Source: Sphingomonas sp. (GTDB taxonomy: Bacteria > Pseudomonadota > Alphaproteobacteria > Sphingomonadales > Sphingomonadaceae). Taken from it: a stretch of 31,356 nt of DNA. Shown here piece after piece: positions 5,871-13,259 of this stretch (within the stretch, counting starts at the first letter, position 1; every line of letters starts with the position of its first letter). Below the pieces are notes generated by a model. That model did not search any database, had not been told where the DNA came from, and saw nothing but the letters and a program-made list of their open reading frames with translations. The stretch is taken from the NCBI GenBank assembly GCA_025981625.1, contig JAICXF010000016.1, positions 1-31,356 on the forward strand, given 5' to 3'. The position numbers and the translations under genes are program-made.

Positions 5871-6470
5871 TCAGCTCGCGTTGCCGAAGTTCACTGTCGG
5901 CGCGTTCTGGGCGGCGGCGGCGGCCTCGAACGGGACCTTGGGCTTGGCGCCGTAGAACACCTTGGCGCCGACGGCCGTCGGGAAGGTGCGGATCAGCGTG
6001 TTATATTGCCGTACCGATTCATTGTAATCGCGGCGCGCGACCTCGATCCGGTTCTCGGTGCCTTCGAGCTGGTCCTGCAGCGCGAGGAAATTCTGGTTGG
6101 ACTTCAGGTCCGGATAGGCCTCGACGCTGACCAGCAGCCGCCCCAGCGATCCGCTGAGCTGGCTTTGCGCATTCTGGAACGCCTGGACCTTGGCGGGATC
6201 GCTGAGGTCGCCGGCATTGAGCTGGACGCTGGTCGCCTTGGCCCGCGCGTTGGTCACGTCGGTGAGGACCGTCTTTTCCTGCTGGGCATAGCCCTTCACC
6301 GTCGCGACCAGGTTCGGGATGAGGTCGGCACGGCGCTGGTAGTCGGCCTGGAGGTCGCCCCATTTGGCGTTGACCTGCTCCTCGGCGGTCGGGACGCTGT
6401 TGATGCCGCAGCCGGCAAGGCTCAGCGCGGCCAGCGGTGCAAGCAATCCGAGACGGCGGAAGATAGTCAT
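5871..6470 (-). CDS. LemA family lipoprotein
   Basis: The 199-residue form starting at the ATG at 6470 has a GGAGGGG ribosome site just upstream; the open frame reads further up but the added residues lack signal character. The N terminus is a lipoprotein signal with the lipobox LAGC (LSLAGCGIN). The mature part is the LemA fold: AKWGDLQADYQRRADLIPNLVATVKGYA, then long helices including SLGRLLVSVEAYPDLKSNQNF and ENRIEVARRDYNESVRQYN. LemA proteins are membrane-anchored coiled-coil bundles of uncertain role. Being first in a LemA-TPM-TPM-Nudix series, it likely works with the two TPM proteins. Confidence 0.9.
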   Translation of the reverse strand: MTIFRRLGLLAPLAALSLAGCGINSVPTAEEQVNAKWGDLQADYQRRADLIPNLVATVKGYAQQEKTVLTDVTNARAKATSVQLNAGDLSDPAKVQAFQNAQSQLSGSLGRLLVSVEAYPDLKSNQNFLALQDQLEGTENRIEVARRDYNESVRQYNTLIRTFPTAVGAKVFYGAKPKVPFEAAAAAQNAPTVNFGNAS

Positions 6471-6624
6471 GTGCCCCTCCCAATATGGTCGAGCGGATAA
6501 GTAGAGCGACCGCCGTTCCCGTTCAAGATGCTGTCTTAAGAATGCAACACAGCAAAGCTGCTGCTGGCAAACAGCCGTCACTTCGCTAGTGTCGGCTCAC
6601 CGACATGGAAAGGGGTGCGTGCAC

Positions 6625-7056
6625 ATGCTGAAAGATTTCCGCGCGTTCATCGCCAAGGGCAACGTCCTCGATCTCGCTGTCGCCGTGATCATCGGCGCGG
6701 CCTTCGCCAAGATCGTGACCAGCCTGACGGATGACATCATCATGCCGATCGTCGGCAAGATTTTCGGCGGGCTCGATTTTTCAAGCCACTTCACGATGCT
6801 CGGTCCGGTTCCGGCGGATTACCACGGATCGATGACGGACTATGCGGCGCTCAAGAAAGCGGGCGCGCCGGTGCTCGGCTGGGGACAGTTCGTCACCGAG
6901 GTCGTCAGCTTCCTGATCCTCGCCTTCATCATCTTCTTGATGGTGCGCTGGGCGACGAAGGTGATGCGCAGGCGAGAGGAACCGGCGGTGGTCGCCGGCC
7001 CGACCGAGACCGAGCTGCTGACCGAGATCCGCGACGAGCTGCGGCGGCGCGCTTAA
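6625..7056 (+). CDS. mscL: Large-conductance mechanosensitive channel MscL
   Basis: MscL is a homopentameric inner-membrane channel that opens under membrane tension during hypo-osmotic shock. The 143-residue protein starts with MLKDFRAFIAKGNVLDLAVA, followed by the pore-lining first membrane helix (VAVIIGAAFAKIVTSLTDDIIMP), a short periplasmic loop, the second helix (FVTEVVSFLILAFIIFLMVR) and the charged C-terminal helix with LLTEIRDELRRR. The ATG at 6625 is chosen with AAGGGG at 6610-6615; a GTG at 6619 would add two residues. The gene is divergent from lemA. Confidence 0.95.
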   Translation: MLKDFRAFIAKGNVLDLAVAVIIGAAFAKIVTSLTDDIIMPIVGKIFGGLDFSSHFTMLGPVPADYHGSMTDYAALKKAGAPVLGWGQFVTEVVSFLILAFIIFLMVRWATKVMRRREEPAVVAGPTETELLTEIRDELRRRA

Positions 7057-7117
7057 AGGCGCCAGCGGCCACTGGGGTGCATTGCGAAGCTCGGCCCCGC
7101 ACACGATAGAAGCTGAG

Positions 7118-7534
7118 ATGCGGGACAGTAGAAAATTGGATGCGCTGTCCAGGCGCGCTCCCACGATCGTGATCGTCACTTTGTGTGCCGCGCTCGTGGC
7201 CGATTGGGCGGACGCACCACTGTGGCTGCCCTATGGTCTCGCGATTGTGGTCGGTTGCCTGGCGCTCGCTGTGATGGCCTCGAGGGACCGTCAGACGCCG
7301 TTCAGCCCTGAAGAGGGGGCTGGCGGCAGCGGTAAAAGCTGGATCGCTCACGAACTCGCCGGGAAGGGGTCGCCTTCCGGCTTCTATGTCCTGGGCTTCT
7401 TCGCTTTGATCACGATCGTTCTGACCGGGTTTCAAGGGCCATATTCCACGCCCGCGTGGGCCGCTTTGGCGCTCGGGGCCGCCTGGGGCATGGCGAACGC
7501 CCGCTATCCGGCAGACGAAGAAGCGGAGCCATGA
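7118..7534 (+). CDS. Small integral membrane protein, function unknown
   Basis: The protein is about 138 residues if read from the ATG at 7118 (MRDSRKLDAL); a TTG at 7082 would add 12 residues, and no ribosome site clearly decides. Four hydrophobic segments are visible: APTIVIVTLCAALVADW, LPYGLAIVVGCLALAVM, FYVLGFFALITIVLTGF and WAALALGAAWGMANA, joined by a polar loop with a Gly/Ser stretch. The family is not recognised. It lies 61 bases behind mscL on the same strand, and its end faces the lipoprotein gene at 7561. Confidence 0.6.
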   Translation: MRDSRKLDALSRRAPTIVIVTLCAALVADWADAPLWLPYGLAIVVGCLALAVMASRDRQTPFSPEEGAGGSGKSWIAHELAGKGSPSGFYVLGFFALITIVLTGFQGPYSTPAWAALALGAAWGMANARYPADEEAEP

Positions 7535-7560
7535 TGCCCGCTTTCGACGCAGAACTGACG

Positions 7561-7950
7561 TTAGCGGGCGGCTTTTTGGTAAGTAATCCTGACGCCGGCG
7601 ACTTCATTGGCCTCTTTGAAGATGCGGGAGTTGGCGGCATACCTGATGAGCAAATGGTCTGGTGATAGCCACCGCATATCTGCCCACGAACCTTGCCACG
7701 GCCCGACTGCGGCTGCGCCGTCATTATCATCAGCGATGAAGGCGTTTCCGCCGCCTGCCACTTTGTCGCCGGGGAGCAGCACGGAAATGTGGGTGGAAAA
7801 ACTCGTGCTGGCTCCGCAATCCCGTCGGAACAACGCAGCAGCATACTGACCATCCGGAGCCTTCACCACCTGCACAAGGGTGTTGCTGCATAGGTCAGAG
7901 CAACCAGCCAATGTCCCCAATAAAAGAAGGCCTATTGCAGCTTTGAACAT
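7561..7950 (-). CDS. Small lipoprotein, function unknown
   Basis: The 129-residue product begins with a short signal (MFKAAIGLLLLGTLAGCSD) whose LAGC lipobox predicts lipid attachment at Cys17. The mature part contains VKAPDGQYAAALFRRDCGAS followed by SFSTHISVLLPGD. I recall this pattern of a compact beta-rich domain from uncharacterised proteobacterial proteins but cannot name the family. It begins 15 bases past the end of the broken membrane-protein gene, on the same strand, so the two were probably co-transcribed. Confidence 0.65.
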   Translation of the reverse strand: MFKAAIGLLLLGTLAGCSDLCSNTLVQVVKAPDGQYAAALFRRDCGASTSFSTHISVLLPGDKVAGGGNAFIADDNDGAAAVGPWQGSWADMRWLSPDHLLIRYAANSRIFKEANEVAGVRITYQKAAR

Positions 7951-7965
7951 AGGCCGAATGGCGCC

Positions 7966-8549
7966 TTAGAAGAGCCGGCTGTGCATGCCGATACCGAGGA
8001 AGGCGAGCGCCGGGACGACGGCATCTTTTGCCAGCATCAGGATCAAAAGCACGATGTTCGCTCGCTTGTCGCGCAGCGCGAGGAGCGCGATCAGCAGTGC
8101 GAAAAGGGTGAGATCGTTCGCGAAGCCGAGCGGTGACCGCACGAATGGCTTGCCGAGCGCCGTCAGGACCACGACGGCGACGATGTTGCAGAAGAGGATG
8201 CCACCGAGCACCCATTGCTTGTGCTTGGAATAATAAACGTCAAAGTCGGCCATTCGACGAAGTCCCTTGGGAAGACCAGCCGCGCCGCGAGATAATAGAT
8301 GCCGGCTAGGAAGACGCCGAGGATCAGGACGATGAGAGCAGGGCGCTCGAACATGTCCCTCAGTTGCCACGCGATCTCCCAGAAGGAGATCAGATCGAGG
8401 ATGACGAACAGGCCGAGCAGCGGGGTCAGCCAGCCGATCTTGAGCTTGTGCCGCTCCTGGAGCGTATTGCCGAACCCTTGGAACACCTGCGCCAGGGCGA
8501 GCCCGAACAGCAGGCTGTAGAGCGAAAAGACGAATTCGAAGATCGTCAT
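7966..8549 (-). pseudogene. Frameshifted four-to-six-helix membrane protein
   Basis: Two overlapping frames together make one protein. From the ATG at 8549 (after AGGGGGCT) the frame reads a membrane protein (MTIFEFVFSLYSLLFGLALA...) up to LVFPRDFVEWP near 8247, then turns into Ser/Thr-rich nonsense ending at 8163. The next frame carries on with DFDVYYSKHKQWVLGGILFC and four more hydrophobic segments to the stop at 7966. Restoring one base between 8247 and 8246 would give a continuous product of about 194 residues. By analogy with related proteins that I recall from sphingomonads, the whole is normally one gene. It may be a real mutation, a sequencing error or, less likely, a slippage site; an ATG at 8253 could also start the second part on its own. 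Confidence 0.6.
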
Positions 8550-8726
8550 GAGAGCCCCCTCCCGCCCTGCTTATAAATCGACCGCGGGCGGCTGAGCAGT
8601 CGTTTTCGATGATGACCGCGTTCAACCCGTTGCGGACATCAGTAGCTGGTGGGAAGGTTCGTTCATGGCCAGCATGGATCAACCGCGCTTCGAAGATCTC
8701 AATATCACAATGCGGAGAGCGGAAAA

Positions 8727-9731
8727 GTGAACCGCCGCGATCAGCCTCGCTGCAGCAGCGTCAAGCCGTTCGCGGTCGTGCTGTGCCTGTTCTTGTCGAG
8801 CAGTTGCTCAGCCAGTGCGCAGACCTTTGATCCCCGTGACCCGCGTTCGCCCTTGCATCTCATTCGCGTGATCGAGCTTCCGGGGGTGAAAGGCCGCATC
8901 GACCACATGGCCCTGGATGCTGACGGAAAGCACCTCTTTGTTGCGGAAAACGGCAACGGCAGCCTTGATGACGTCGACCTGGCTTCGGGCAAGATCGTCC
9001 GTCGGATCGACGGACTGCATGAACCGCAGGGCGTTGCGTGGCTGCCTTCGCAAGGGGAGATCGCCGTCGCATCCGGCGACGGTCTGGTCACCTTCTATCG
9101 CGGCACAGACGGGCGTGAGGTTGCAACACTCAGCTTAGGAGCGGACGCAGACAATGTTCGCGTCGATCCTCGGAATGGCGATCTGGTCGTGGGTTACGGC
9201 TCAGGTGGGCTGGCCGTAATCGATCCAGCAACGCATCGCGTCATTGGACGCGTAGCCCTGCCCGCGCATCCCGAAGCATTCGAACTACTTGGGGCCAAGG
9301 TCTTCGTGAACATTCCGGATGCCCACAAAATTGTCGTTGCCGATCTTGGTCGAGAACGGATCAGTTCGACGCTGAGCACAGGACTTTTCTTCGGCAACTT
9401 TCCAATGGCATCGGACGCAACAGGGTCGCGGATTGCGGTTGCATATCGGACGCCGGGAACCGTGTCGGTTTTGGACGCACAGTCGGGCGCCGCCATTTCT
9501 TCCACCCCGATCTGCGGCGACGCCGACGACCTTTATTTCCGCGGTCGGCAGTTGATTATCATCTGCGGAAGCGGCGCGGTTGAGCTGATTGATCAGCCGA
9601 GGCAGCATGTCCGTGTCCGTACCCAGCGGGGTGCGAGAACGGGCGTCCTCGACCGGATCAGCGATCACCTGCTTGTCGCGGTGCCTTCGCGGCAAAGTGC
9701 GGCCGCGATCTGGGAGTTTTCTTTCCGTTGA
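8727..9731 (+). CDS. Exported beta-propeller (YncE-like) protein
   Basis: From the GTG at 8727 (GGAGAGCGGAAAA upstream) the product is 334 residues with a signal peptide (basic start, hydrophobic VKPFAVVLCLFLSSSCSASA). The mature protein is a run of short propeller blades: LDADGKHLFVAENGNGSLDDVDLASGKIV, GVAWLPSQGEIAVASGDGLV, VRVDPRNGDLVVGYGSGGLAVID and so on, as in the YncE/quinoprotein-like seven-bladed group. No catalytic or cofactor residues are apparent; a periplasmic binding or scaffold role is inferred. The nearest downstream DNA is the tmRNA-like fragment at 9771. Confidence 0.7.
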   Translation: MNRRDQPRCSSVKPFAVVLCLFLSSSCSASAQTFDPRDPRSPLHLIRVIELPGVKGRIDHMALDADGKHLFVAENGNGSLDDVDLASGKIVRRIDGLHEPQGVAWLPSQGEIAVASGDGLVTFYRGTDGREVATLSLGADADNVRVDPRNGDLVVGYGSGGLAVIDPATHRVIGRVALPAHPEAFELLGAKVFVNIPDAHKIVVADLGRERISSTLSTGLFFGNFPMASDATGSRIAVAYRTPGTVSVLDAQSGAAISSTPICGDADDLYFRGRQLIIICGSGAVELIDQPRQHVRVRTQRGARTGVLDRISDHLLVAVPSRQSAAAIWEFSFR

Positions 9732-9770
9732 ACTATGCGCCGCCGGTTCGATTTCCACCCGAAGCGGACA

Positions 9771-9860
9771 CACTCGTCCATCCTGTTTCGCCCCATCAAC
9801 ATCCGCGCCCGATATTGCCCCTGACGCGGATGCTAATGGAGGCGCCGGGGTACTGCCCCC
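9771..9860 (-). repeat. Decayed partial copy of the permuted tmRNA gene
   Basis: This stretch matches the junction region of the intact tmRNA gene at 12007-12097, in the same orientation. The outer blocks are nearly identical (9771-9809 with about three differences; 9837-9860 with none), while the middle 27 bases differ. Read on the minus strand it has an acceptor-piece end (GGCAGTACCCCGGCGCCTCC) and a coding-piece start (GGGGCGAAACAGGATGGACG). It is not functional as it stands: the CCACCA end reads CCATTA, the T-arm stem is broken, and only 40 bases separate it from the beta-propeller gene, leaving no room for a tag. Confidence 0.75.
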
Positions 9861-9871
9861 GTGGATCGTAA

Positions 9872-10654
9872 TTAAGCCTGTTGACGACCCATGCCGCCCC
9901 GGTTGCCCCGCCTCAGGGCGCAACCCATGCCACCCAAACCGAGCAACATCATGGCCCACGTCGACGGCTCCGGAACGGCACCAACGCTTGTGTTGAACGT
10001 GAACCGGGTGGCCATCGCGTAACCTGGGTCACTCACCGTCCCCGTCGTCGAATCATCGATGAACGTATAGACCTGTTGCGCATCCGCGGTCGCGCCCTCG
10101 TAGGACGAGTAGATGCGATCATCGCCTATCGGATGGGTGATCTGAACGAGCAGGTCGCCGAGATTGGGATCGTATAGGAAGTCCGTCCCGGAGAAGCTCA
10201 CCCAGGTCCCCGGATAGGCGGGAGCGCCCGGGACGCCCGTATAAAAGGTCGCAGCGTCCGCGCCCAGATTGTTAGCGAACGTGCTCGACAGCGAACCGAC
10301 CGGATTGGCGCTGGTCGAAAGCGTGATCGTGTAAGTCTGCGTGTTCGGGATTGAGGTATTTCCGAGGAAAAGGTCGATCGCGCTGATGACGACCGGCGAA
10401 GAGCCGAAAAGGGTGTGGCTATACACCGTCTGCAAAGTCGGCGTGCTTGACGGCGCGGTATTGTTGATTGCCGACGGACTGGGCGAGCCGTAATTCACCG
10501 TTGTCGAGGCCAATGTCGGCGTGGAAACACCCAGCAAAGCGACCAGAGCGAGATTTAATGCAGACGCTACCAACCGCATAAAGCTCGCCCGCCGACGATC
10601 GCCCGTTCGCCTTTCGCCCCGAATCAGCGGTGCGCCTTTGCTTGTTTTCAGCAT
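9872..10654 (-). CDS. PEP-CTERM sorting-signal protein
   Basis: The 260-residue protein ends with a PEP-CTERM module: VPEPSTWAMMLLGLGGMG (from about residue 227) followed by an Arg-rich tail, the signal by which an exosortase processes exported proteins. The start at 10654 has AAAGGA eight bases upstream; an inner ATG at 10579 would give a more usual signal peptide (MRLVASALNLALVALLG) but lacks a ribosome site. The mature region (about residues 50-225) is Ser/Thr/Gly-rich and beta-rich with conserved-looking FSGTDFLYDPNLGDLLVQI. It is probably a surface or extracellular-matrix protein. No exosortase gene lies in the window, so processing would rely on one elsewhere. Confidence 0.8.
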   Translation of the reverse strand: MLKTSKGAPLIRGERRTGDRRRASFMRLVASALNLALVALLGVSTPTLASTTVNYGSPSPSAINNTAPSSTPTLQTVYSHTLFGSSPVVISAIDLFLGNTSIPNTQTYTITLSTSANPVGSLSSTFANNLGADAATFYTGVPGAPAYPGTWVSFSGTDFLYDPNLGDLLVQITHPIGDDRIYSSYEGATADAQQVYTFIDDSTTGTVSDPGYAMATRFTFNTSVGAVPEPSTWAMMLLGLGGMGCALRRGNRGGMGRQQA

Positions 10655-10749
10655 GTTAATTTTCCTTTAAACGCTCGCTGGTAATGTTTGCGTCAACCGG
10701 GAGGCGGCGTCATCAAGCCGTTCTCAAGCTTTTCTAAAGGGCGCGGGGG

Positions 10750-11733
10750 ATGTCCGATTTGATGGCAAGCGCAGTTGATCGGCGACCTCGCCGCCGCTGG
10801 GTTTTCGACGACTGCGCCTTCGACGATGCGAGTTGGTCCCTCACCGTAGGCGGCAATCGGGTAACGGTTGAAACCAAACCGCTCGAGCTGCTGCGCGCGC
10901 TTCTGGAGGATGCCGGAAACCTCGTTTCCAAGGACGAACTGCTCGATCGCGTCTGGCCCAATGTGACCGTGGTCGAGGGGTCGCTACCGACCGCCGTTCA
11001 TAAGCTCAGGCAGGTCCTCAAAGACGAAGGCCGTCCATCGCGAATCATCGAGACGGTGCCCCGCATTGGCTATCGGATTGCCGTACCCGTTCGAGTCGAG
11101 GCGGCGCCGGACGCACCATCTCGATTACCCGTTGCGGGCGGGTTTCCGGACTCAGTTGCCGCGCCACAAACGCCTGTCGCACCTTGGTCGCACTGGAAGC
11201 GCCCCCTGCGCCTGCTTTCGGTACTGACCGCTGTCGGAGTTCCCGCGGTATTTGCAGCCTTTCTGTCCGCGCGGCCCGACAATCTTCACGCGACCCTGGC
11301 TAGTCCAGCTTACACCCAGCGTCCGGCTCGGTACGCACTGCGCAAGCTCGATATTGGCGCCGTCGAGGAAATGCTCACCGCCGGCTGGGATCCGAACAAG
11401 TCCTTGGATGATCAGGGCAATGGCGCGATCAATTACGTGCTAAACCAATGCGAATGGGACCACGGCCATAATCAGGAACAGATTTTGCTCATGATTCGCA
11501 CGCTTACGGACGAGGGAGCGGCAATAGACGACCGGAACGTCTGGGGCGACACGCCTTACAGCATCGCCAAGGCACCGCGTTATTGCGGACCAGACCATCC
11601 GGTCACAAGATATCTGCAAATGATGTGCGCCCAAGGCCAGAAGCCGCTCGGCGATCGATGCATGGCTTCTTACGAACTGGCGCGGGGCCACCACTTCGTG
11701 AAGGACCCGGTCCTGGCGGTCGCGAGCCGCTGA
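10750..11733 (+). CDS. ToxR/CadC-like membrane regulator with ankyrin-like sensor domain
   Basis: The 327-residue protein has an OmpR/PhoB-type winged helix at about 17-113 (VETKPLELLRALLEDAGNLVSKDELLDRVW, then SRIIETVPRIGYRI), without a receiver domain; a Pro-rich linker; one membrane helix at about 153-173; and a C-terminal domain, predicted periplasmic. That domain has ankyrin-like units (ALRKLDIGAVEEMLTAGWDPN; GAAIDDRNVWGDTPYSIA) and four Cys (234, 279, 293, 304) that could form disulfides. The layout implies one-step signalling: an outside signal changes DNA binding at the membrane. It is divergent from the PEP-CTERM gene 95 bases away, which is the most natural target (inference). Confidence 0.8.
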   Translation: MSDLMASAVDRRPRRRWVFDDCAFDDASWSLTVGGNRVTVETKPLELLRALLEDAGNLVSKDELLDRVWPNVTVVEGSLPTAVHKLRQVLKDEGRPSRIIETVPRIGYRIAVPVRVEAAPDAPSRLPVAGGFPDSVAAPQTPVAPWSHWKRPLRLLSVLTAVGVPAVFAAFLSARPDNLHATLASPAYTQRPARYALRKLDIGAVEEMLTAGWDPNKSLDDQGNGAINYVLNQCEWDHGHNQEQILLMIRTLTDEGAAIDDRNVWGDTPYSIAKAPRYCGPDHPVTRYLQMMCAQGQKPLGDRCMASYELARGHHFVKDPVLAVASR

Positions 11734-11739
11734 ACCTCG

Positions 11740-12153
11740 TTTAGAGGACCTGAAGTGGGGGGCTTCTGTTGCCCGATGCCTCGCGCCCTTTTGAATGAGT
11801 CCGAGGGATTCTGTTGCCCGGCTCCCTCGGAGGCCGCTGGAATCCCCTTCTGTTGCCCGGCGGGGTCCGACCGCGCTTTAGCTTTGTAACGTCAGTCCGT
11901 TAGGACTTCAGTTACGCCGCAAGAGCAAGTGCTTCGTTATCGTTGGCACTTGTGTGAATGAGCCGTCACGGTGGTCTCATACCGATCGGCAATCGGGCCT
12001 TTATTGCACTCGTCGATCCTATTTCGCCCCCATCAACATCCGCGCCGACCAAGACCGGTGGCGCGGTTGATGGTGGAGGCGCCGGGGTACTGCCCCCCGG
12101 GTCCGAAGTGCCTATTCCACCTGACAGTCTACCGACATAGCCGGTCACCCGGC
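11740..12153 (-). ncRNA. ssrA: Permuted two-piece transfer-messenger RNA (tmRNA)
   Basis: On the minus strand the acceptor piece comes first and ends CGCCUCCACCA at 12071. Its T-arm is CCGGGG/CCCCGG around a GGCAGUA loop. After a spacer of about 39 bases that folds back on itself, the coding piece starts at 12031 with GGGGGCGAAAUAGGAUCGAC. GGGGGCG pairs with CGCCUCC as a 7-bp acceptor stem, and GAGUGC near the coding-piece start pairs with GCACUU in the acceptor piece. The tag frame is 11912-11947: GCC AAC GAT AAC GAA ... GCG TAA, encoding ANDNEALALAA. Three hairpins with the loop GGGCAACAGAA follow. Together with SmpB it frees stalled ribosomes and tags their products for proteases. The 3' limit near 11740 and the mature 5' end of the acceptor piece are estimates. 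Confidence 0.93.
11912..11947 (-). other. ssrA: tmRNA proteolysis-tag reading frame (ANDNEALALAA, stop)
   Basis: Twelve codons from the resume codon GCC at 11947 to TAA at 11912. The ANDN start and the ALAA-type hydrophobic end match the pattern of bacterial ssrA tags that ClpXP and related proteases recognise (the E. coli tag ends in ALAA as well). Confidence 0.9.
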
Positions 12154-12159
12154 ACGGTT

Positions 12160-12188
12160 CAGATAGGGAATTAGCGCGTGAATCTCAA
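12160..12188 (-). promoter_or_regulatory. Promoter of ssrA
   Basis: On the minus strand TTGAGA (12188-12183) and TATCTG (12165-12160) are 17 bases apart, a good sigma-70-type pair, placing the transcript start near 12153, about 80 bases before the acceptor-piece 3' end. This fits a constitutive stable-RNA promoter. Confidence 0.6.
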
Positions 12189-12242
12189 GTCGACCGCTGT
12201 TATGGCGACTTGCCCAACCGGATTTCATGGGAACGGAAATCA

Positions 12243-12503
12243 ATGAAAAGACTGGCTTTTGTGGTGATTGGAGCAGGTTCGCTAGTACTTTCGGCGTGCC
12301 ACAACGGGAATGAAGACGCGGTGCAGAATGCCGAGCTTAACCAGCCCGACGCCGAGCAGCTCAACGATCTCGCCAATCAGGCGGCGGTGGACGCGAACGC
12401 CCAGGCGCCCGTCAACAATGTGCTGCAGGACGAGAATGCGGCGGCGACCGAAAACACGGTCAATCCCAAGGAAGCAGACGAGCAAAACGTCAGCGGCATG
12501 TAA
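12243..12503 (+). CDS. Small Asn/Ala-rich lipoprotein
   Basis: The 86-residue protein starts at the ATG at 12243 (GGAACGG upstream; a TTG at 12210 is less likely). The signal (MKRLAFVVIGAGSLVLSAC) ends in the lipobox LSAC. The short mature part is polar and rich in Asn, Ala, Glu and Gln, without a fold that I recognise. It resembles the lipoprotein at 30046 in size and composition. The gene is divergent from ssrA and 15 bases ahead of the Nudix gene at 12519, so these two probably form an operon. Confidence 0.65.
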   Translation: MKRLAFVVIGAGSLVLSACHNGNEDAVQNAELNQPDAEQLNDLANQAAVDANAQAPVNNVLQDENAAATENTVNPKEADEQNVSGM

Positions 12504-12518
12504 GCCAAGGCGCGGCCG

Positions 12519-13259
12519 GTGAGCGACGACGCGATCCCGGCCGCGACGCTGATCCTGGTGCGCGAACGGGCCGACGGTCCGCCCGAGCTGCTGATGGTCG
12601 AGCGGGCCGGCGGGATGGCGTTCGCTGCGGGCGCGCTGGTCTTCCCCGGTGGCCGCATCGATACGGCTGACATCGACCTAGGCGAGCACATCGGCGTCGA
12701 TGCAGCCGCGATTGCGGCAATCCGCGAAACGATCGAGGAGACGGCAGTGCCGGTGGCCCTGACGCCGGCACCGGGCCGCGACACCGCGCGCGGCCTTCAG
12801 GACGCGCTCGTCGCCGAAGGGCGGTTCGCGGAACTGCTCGAGGAACATGGCCTGCGCATCGAGGCCGACCGGCTCATTCCGTTCGCGCGATGGGTTCCGA
12901 AGTTCCATGCGGTGCGCCGCTTCGACACAATGTTCTTCGTCGCCCGCTGCCCGCCGGGCGAATGGCAGCCGCGCGTGGTTGAAGGCGAATGCAGCGGCGC
13001 CTGCTGGATCACCGCCGCCGAGGTGCTCGATCGCGACCGGCGCGGCGAAGCACGGCTGATCTTCCCCACGCGCCGCAATCTCGAGCGGCTGGCACGGCAT
13101 GGCTCATTCGAGCAAATTCGCGCCGACGCGCTTGCTCACGCCATCGAACCGGTCACGCCGCGGGTCGAAGAGGTGGACGGCGAACAATACATCACCATCC
13201 CGCCGGACCTCGGCTATCCGGTCACCCGGGGAAAGCTCGACGGCTTGTGGCGTGGCTGA
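12519..13259 (+). CDS. Nudix-fold hydrolase (NUDT19-like)
   Basis: The 246-residue protein from the GTG at 12519 has an N-terminal Nudix half (PAATLILVRERADGPPELLMVERAGGMAF, then FPGGRID) and, after an insert of about 18 residues, AAIRETIEETAV, the REXXEE helix. Such an insert between GGR and RETIEE is usual in the NUDT19/RP2p group, some of which act on coenzyme A esters; the substrate here is open. The C-terminal half (RFDTMFFVARCPPGEWQPRVVEGEC, LIFPTRRNLERLA) also fits that group. It is a cytoplasmic enzyme and the second gene after the small lipoprotein. Confidence 0.75.
   Translation: MSDDAIPAATLILVRERADGPPELLMVERAGGMAFAAGALVFPGGRIDTADIDLGEHIGVDAAAIAAIRETIEETAVPVALTPAPGRDTARGLQDALVAEGRFAELLEEHGLRIEADRLIPFARWVPKFHAVRRFDTMFFVARCPPGEWQPRVVEGECSGACWITAAEVLDRDRRGEARLIFPTRRNLERLARHGSFEQIRADALAHAIEPVTPRVEEVDGEQYITIPPDLGYPVTRGKLDGLWRG

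Follow-up and report, generated by a model that had tools for sequence, protein, structure and literature searches.

Fragments of tmRNA genes serve as signatures of genomic islands, and for cyanobacteria Williams reportedly described, in 2003, a permuted ssrA with integration at its non-tRNA 3' end. In a permuted ssrA, the hairpin core lies inside the gene. Islander requires an integrase together with a gene and a fragment in the correct orientation before it calls an island (PMC4383910), and the islands of Dehalococcoides enter ssrA in the T-loop (PMC3146451). The tmRNA database holds 72 sequences classed as "permuted, no CDS" (PMC11915505), phage-borne two-piece tmRNA is already known (PMC9004378), and template switching is described as a process that creates and mends hairpins (PMC8794818). 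Among the matches listed in the literature on permuted ssrA, islands, and tmRNA fragments, there was no report of a permuted ssrA fragment that consists of the core only.

The window, by which we mean the whole 31,356-nt stretch of Sphingomonas sp. DNA analyzed here, contains a permuted ssrA and, about two thousand nucleotides from it, a truncated copy of its core (Table 1). The nearest loci found carry the name Sphingomonas sp., and one of the window's proteins has relatives named Sphingomicrobium sp. A preliminary description made from the letters alone had noted that 9771-9860 repeats 12007-12097 in the same orientation. The repeat is confirmed by two ungapped matches, one of 24 nt at 92% identity and one of 70 nt at 80% (repeat families D6 and D1), by a BLAST comparison of the window ssrA with its own locus (81% over 91 nt, E 5e-19), and by a dedicated covariance model of the core from T-arm to D-arm, which gives 58.7 bits for the fragment (E 3e-12 in 1.38 Mb) and 97.2 bits for the intact gene. 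The model was trained on 26 ssrA genes that included the window's own gene and excluded the fragment; among 77 sources, its best match other than ssrA or its antisense reached 20.7 bits. The fragment is also detected by the Rfam model alpha_tmRNA (minus strand, 9777-9863, model positions 91-166), although its 29.1 bits (E 5e-6) fall short of that model's gathering threshold of 50.

In the minus-strand reading, the fragment begins with a 24-nt T-loop/acceptor block equal to that of the intact gene and continues with CCATTA where the gene has CCACCA; its acceptor 5' strand is one G shorter than the gene's. The preliminary description had correctly seen that CCACCA, the T-stem pairing, and the tag region are lost: CCA, T-stem, and tag reading frame are all absent, and ARAGORN calls the other copy only. 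Most likely the fragment is a nonfunctional truncated copy of the tmRNA core that does nothing, and the working gene is the one at 11839-12192. To the left of 9771, no significant similarity was found (p 0.24-0.30), either to the coding part or to the tail. To the right of 9860, the nearest 30 nt give p 0.04 and the nearest 50 nt p 0.17-0.19, with nothing convincing; the value over the nearest 30 nt suggests that the copy may once have been longer.

Table 1. Features of the window around the fragment, with the tandem duplication of one relative in the last line
Feature	Position	Strand	Basis
Truncated ssrA copy	9771..9860	-	repeat search, fold, self-BLAST, Rfam alpha_tmRNA, dedicated covariance model
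Fragment: T-loop and acceptor 3' strand	9837-9860	-	sub-coordinates read from sequence
Fragment: intervening hairpin	about 9793-9836	-	sub-coordinates read from sequence
Fragment: acceptor 5' strand and start of D-arm	9771-9792	-	sub-coordinates read from sequence
Part of intact ssrA matched by the fragment	12007..12097	-	repeat search, self-BLAST
Intact permuted ssrA (tmRNA), tag ANDNEALALAA	11839..12192	-	Rfam RF01849 alpha_tmRNA, 226 bits; ARAGORN tag
3' tail of ssrA, in which all three hairpin-like units carry the loop GGGCAACAGAA (motif at 11764, 11809, 11848)	11754..11880	-	hairpins by eye
GC-poor accessory interval between mscL and ssrA, fragment in its middle	7057..11740		GC comparison, relative loci
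Beta-propeller protein gene, ending 39 nt left of the fragment	8649..9731	+	profile search
PEP-CTERM protein gene, pointing toward the beta-propeller gene from the other side of the fragment	9872..10654	-	PF07589 / NF035944
Winged-helix regulator gene (Trans_reg_C, ToxR/HilA-like), divergent from the PEP-CTERM gene	10750..11733	+	PF00486
LemA and MscL genes on the left flank, which many relatives conserve	5871..7056		PF04011, PF01741; synteny
Small lipoprotein-like gene (named by eye) and NUDIX gene, right flank	12243..13259	+	NUDIX profile; synteny
Tandem duplication in G066 with two ssrA cores (L113, L048, L049)	C1:2143657-2171377

The coding part of the intact gene gives no sign of having been exchanged. 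A species tree of seven proteins (FastTree, 60 of 69 rows kept) places the window as sister to L088 and then to L085, and the coding part of ssrA is likewise nearest to that of L088, with 94% identity over 194 columns. The grouping of the window with L088 and L085 is not rejected in the coding-part test (AU p 0.52, 23 rows), and the 5' acceptor part gives p 0.25, although ssrA trees of 98-196 columns have little power. Because the coding part is closest to L088 and the clade is not rejected, these short sequences show no sign of an imported coding part, which looks inherited rather than brought in. The idea that a tandem duplication had renewed ssrA is accordingly not indicated on the side of renewal; the duplication itself, followed by a deletion, is possible, and a relative described below has one that ends in ssrA. 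With three hairpin units versus two in the sisters L088 and L085, the window gene's tail could have been imported. In the tails of 67 relative loci, the GGGCAACAGAA motif occurs twice in 60, three times in 4, and once in 1, the tail being cut in 2. A comparison of 20 tails by eye found units 1 and 2 kept in some and units 1 and 3 in others, as if units were lost through recombination between them.

The fragment was not recognized as part of a shared repeat in the relatives searched. When it was used to search 71 genomes of the nearest genus, 67 matched at E <= 0.05, with one ssrA place each and two in G066; two of these genomes (G036, G051) match over 24 nt only, and five (G010, G016, G026, G033, G067) have one additional weak match each of 20-27 nt. 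The T-loop/acceptor pattern, with 3 mismatches or fewer, is likewise found in 67 of the 71, once in 66 and twice in G066, so that the check proposed earlier, whether relatives have just one ssrA copy, returned a single copy in 66 of 67. The exception, G066, carries a 13,861-bp unit in two head-to-tail copies that are 99.99% identical, and one boundary of the unit falls within the ssrA tail; this arrangement may be a young event or an assembly artefact. When each ssrA was compared by BLAST with the locus around it, a long further fragment appeared in the window alone; matches of 15-43 nt (E 0.005-0.02) were found in 6 of the 68 relative loci, some of which are shortened by contig ends. With the core model, run under stricter filters, the non-ssrA matches among those listed for the 71 genomes reach at most 27.1 bits, and the best of them sits in an ORF. 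Four weak core-model matches (G073, G071, G066, G013) were rejected, the best lying inside an ORF beside an integrase-domain ORF and the other three being judged on alignment only. No further copies of a dispersed repeat were thus seen in the 71 genus genomes, a sample outside which the window's own genome lies, nor was the same two-copy layout across a clade; these were the two outcomes that the preliminary description had named as speaking against its reading.

Across the wider family, alpha_tmRNA was found in 383 of 397 genomes, with three candidates scored per genome under stricter filters, and a second match in two (G279, G399). A 22-nt T-loop/acceptor pattern matched 15 of the 397, none of them twice, and is specific to the genus and its near kin. 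The fragment as query matched 32, once each, with two candidates scored per genome. These family-wide counts may have missed weak second copies in genomes beyond the genus. The case of G399 consists of two partial ssrA pieces, both at contig ends. The second match of G279 scores 15.4 bits over model range 87-168, nearly the range of the fragment, and 20.7 bits with the core model; it was set aside because this is less than the 27.1 bits reached by an ORF in the genus genomes. This match (L166 1501-1604; C20:15200-15303) is a weak core-like hairpin between ordinary genes and plasmid partition/replication genes, and probably a chance one. Its two hits in a plasmid database (E 0.1 and 0.4) have no Rfam match and overlap ORFs.

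The interval in which the fragment lies is distinct from its surroundings in composition and gene content. Its GC content is 60% on both sides of the fragment versus 65.0% and 65.7% in the flanks, and GC3 is 57-72% in five interval ORFs versus 71-85% in 13 flanking genes, 11 of which have at least 79%. The flanks are syntenic in many relatives, with LemA and MscL on one side and NUDIX, often with the small lipoprotein-like gene, on the other. mscL lies left of ssrA in 46 of 68 relative loci, at a spacing of 44-6486 nt (less than 600 nt in 13 of the 46) and of 4786 nt in the window on the same count. Close relatives have different genes in this interval, and no homologs of the window ORFs 7082, 7966, 8649, 9872, and 10750 were found in any of the 68 relative loci (E <= 1e-6), so that these loci lack the five genes and with them the segment whose absence from relatives the preliminary description had wished to see checked. 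The best relatives of the beta-propeller protein come from metagenomes (94%, on a 49.6-kb contig) and a Sphingomicrobium MAG (77%). Near full-length relatives of the regulator, all of them distant from ssrA, occur in four of the 71 genus genomes; exported or repeat proteins, as read from translations, are encoded near several of them and a tRNA-Thr near one. In that locus (L133 9295-10465), the regulator relative ends beside the tRNA-Thr gene, as the window regulator ends beside ssrA; no repeat of this tRNA-Thr was recognized among 20 of at least 60 repeat families.

Such an interval, bounded by an intact gene, resembles the known islands at tRNA and tmRNA genes (PMC4383910; PMC3146451), which share with the window an intact gene, a same-orientation fragment, accessory genes between the two, and an edge in the T-loop. 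In contrast to them, no integrase was found in the window's interval, the fragment stops in the D-arm and lies in the middle of the interval, and no such repeats were found in relatives. A decayed island, or more than one, would have recombined at the T-loop and rebuilt the gene from a T-loop-to-tail copy that it carried, moving the old part to the far end. Loss of the integrase and of most of this displaced part would have followed, and the fragment may be the divide between two old tandem islands. The direct orientation, a repeat whose right edge falls at the T-stem/T-loop, the GC-poor accessory genes on either side of the fragment, and the lack of the five tested interval genes in the 68 relative loci agree with this history. 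The cognate fragment in the same orientation as the intact tmRNA gene is present, as is the empty site, with mscL and ssrA together in 46 of 68 relatives and the window genes absent. However, the fragment ends in the D-arm instead of extending from a crossover point as far as the gene's 3' end, and it lacks the gene part that a displaced end must carry. As for a foreign gene part, the coding part is nearest to L088 and without foreign signal, a comparison of low power, and the three-unit tail is unlike that of the sisters.

The search for a recombinase also speaks against an island. None was found in 7057-11740 among the 14 of 18 ORFs of at least 80 aa that were compared with Pfam, 10 of them also with PHROGs; the sole PHROG match, to the regulator, is to a PHROG of unassigned function. 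The earlier remark that no integrase remains therefore holds for these 14 ORFs. Integrase-domain matches occur in 71 of 71 genus genomes, and among the matches listed the nearest one downstream of ssrA lies at ∼22 kb (G059), whereas some upstream are closer, such as one at ∼12 kb in G051. Excision between repeats of a permuted gene would, moreover, remove the coding part of ssrA, and together with the lack of a recombinase among these ORFs this leaves the integrating-island origin put forward earlier without support. Nor does the fragment lie at the far end, where in the preliminary description islands leave partial gene copies: it sits in mid-interval, with 7057-9770 beyond it equally GC-poor. 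Finally, a second T-loop/acceptor block is found in none of the 67 genus genomes other than the tandemly duplicated G066, even though the interval varies freely (44-6486 nt). We regard a decayed ssrA island as the main rival reading of the locus, and as a rather doubtful one.

The origin of the copied segment points to the host lineage. The 16-nt arm GCGCGGATGTTGATGG of the fragment occurs exactly in the window gene and in L087 only, out of 69 loci, and the segment that holds it is strongly variable among relatives; the fragment is therefore most likely a copy of the lineage's own ssrA. Its occurrence in none of the relatives searched suggests an origin after the split from L088. A search for a plasmid source gave no match, and 27-base matches in two records of one Caulobacter phage (E 0.1) were taken as chance. 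Separately, we note that the viral contig L146 (IMG/VR) encodes, at 7731-7996, a whole permuted tmRNA of the alpha type whose T-loop/acceptor block is host-like. It matches 21 nt of this block exactly; in contrast to the fragment, it is a complete gene with its own tag region, and its intervening segment is unlike the fragment's.

The preliminary description had called the middle of the fragment divergent and decayed. Divergent it is, whereas plain decay accounts poorly for a nearly unbroken hairpin of -49.9 kcal/mol with z -5.2 on the minus strand (z -1.4 on the plus strand). The 5' arm CCATTAGCATCCGCG pairs along its full length with the fragment's own 3' arm CGCGGATGTTGATGG, two G-U pairs included, and two changes separate it from the exact complement of that arm, CCATCAACATCCGCG. 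In several of this clade's relatives, the arm facing CGCGGATGTTGATGG, or facing an arm much like it, reads CCACCATCAACCGCG and leaves mismatches. When decay of the present gene was simulated in 1000 copies with 13 random substitutions and 2 indels, 0.3% folded equally well, a proportion that rose to 2.4% at 8 substitutions and 7.1% at 5. One template switch and two transitions would explain both the 5' arm and the loss of CCACCA. The likeness to template-switch (quasi-palindrome) mutations (PMC8794818) lies in one hairpin arm being turned into the complement of the other; the abstract of that work deals with RNA genes that keep their structure, whereas the fragment no longer works as a tmRNA. 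The pairing could alternatively reflect selection or an origin from another functional allele, the latter weakened because CCA is invariant in all 26 aligned ssrA genes.

The hairpin could be maintained by selection, for example as a 3'-end structure between the flanking convergent genes. It occupies 90 of the 140 nt between the two stop codons (9731 and 9872), and the minus-strand fold and the pairing beyond the expectation of random decay would suit such a function; against it stand the absence, by reading, of a T-run after the hairpin on both strands, the weak plus-strand fold, the absence from every relative searched, and the fact that templated mutation accounts for the pairing. Retention for function is therefore very unlikely in our estimation. 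The hairpin core might also have moved as a unit, by single-strand or RNA-mediated copying of a palindrome. Flanks of 16 and 18 nt stand nearly symmetrically around the predicted hairpin within the repeat, as read from the fold, and similarity beyond the repeat edges is not convincing; this symmetry may, however, be chance, because the acceptor is flanked by the T-arm and the D-arm, and one copy only was found, with no further strong matches among those listed for the 71 genomes. We give this mode of movement hardly any credence. It is quite improbable, too, that the palindromic core of the permuted ssrA was copied and inserted as a unit and then kept as a hairpin by template switching. If unit copying were true, it would provide an integrase-free route to tmRNA pseudogenes.

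With no recombinase found, a fragment that stops short of the gene end and lies in mid-interval, and no second block in the genus genomes outside G066, the balance moves from an island toward a rearrangement. We consider it reasonably probable that the fragment is a fossil of the lineage's own ssrA, left by a rearrangement of the interval free of any site-specific recombinase and later reshaped by hairpin-templated mutation. The uniqueness of the fragment among the genomes searched, its own-lineage arm, the apparently inherited gene, the failure to find a recombinase, and pairing above random decay support this reading. Against it, the direct orientation, the T-loop edge, and GC-poor cargo beside ssrA fit island leftovers as well, no intermediate was seen, and the copy must have lost its coding part and tail in a second step. 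The rearrangement would have occurred within the lineage once it had separated from the closest relatives sampled, and would have rebuilt the mscL-ssrA interval with its accessory genes. One possible route is a deletion after a tandem duplication that had one of its ends in the T-loop; another is a template-switched insertion. Ordinary mutation and a hairpin-templated correction of the fragment would have come afterwards, and a single templated event may have removed CCACCA and restored the pairing together. The duplication in G066 offers a partial likeness, with a second ssrA copy in direct orientation and a break inside ssrA; it differs in extending over 13.9 kb at 99.99% identity with two equal tRNA-like cores, whereas the window retains 90 bp only.

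These findings suggest that a fragment with two features of an island, which fails in two others that were tested, calls for caution where islands are called from fragments of a permuted ssrA. The apparent hairpin correction that removed CCACCA is recorded here in what is otherwise an ordinary genomic fossil. For this soil bacterium, the 90-nt broken tmRNA copy is most likely the leftover of a local DNA rearrangement, neither a working gene nor the proven footprint of a mobile element.
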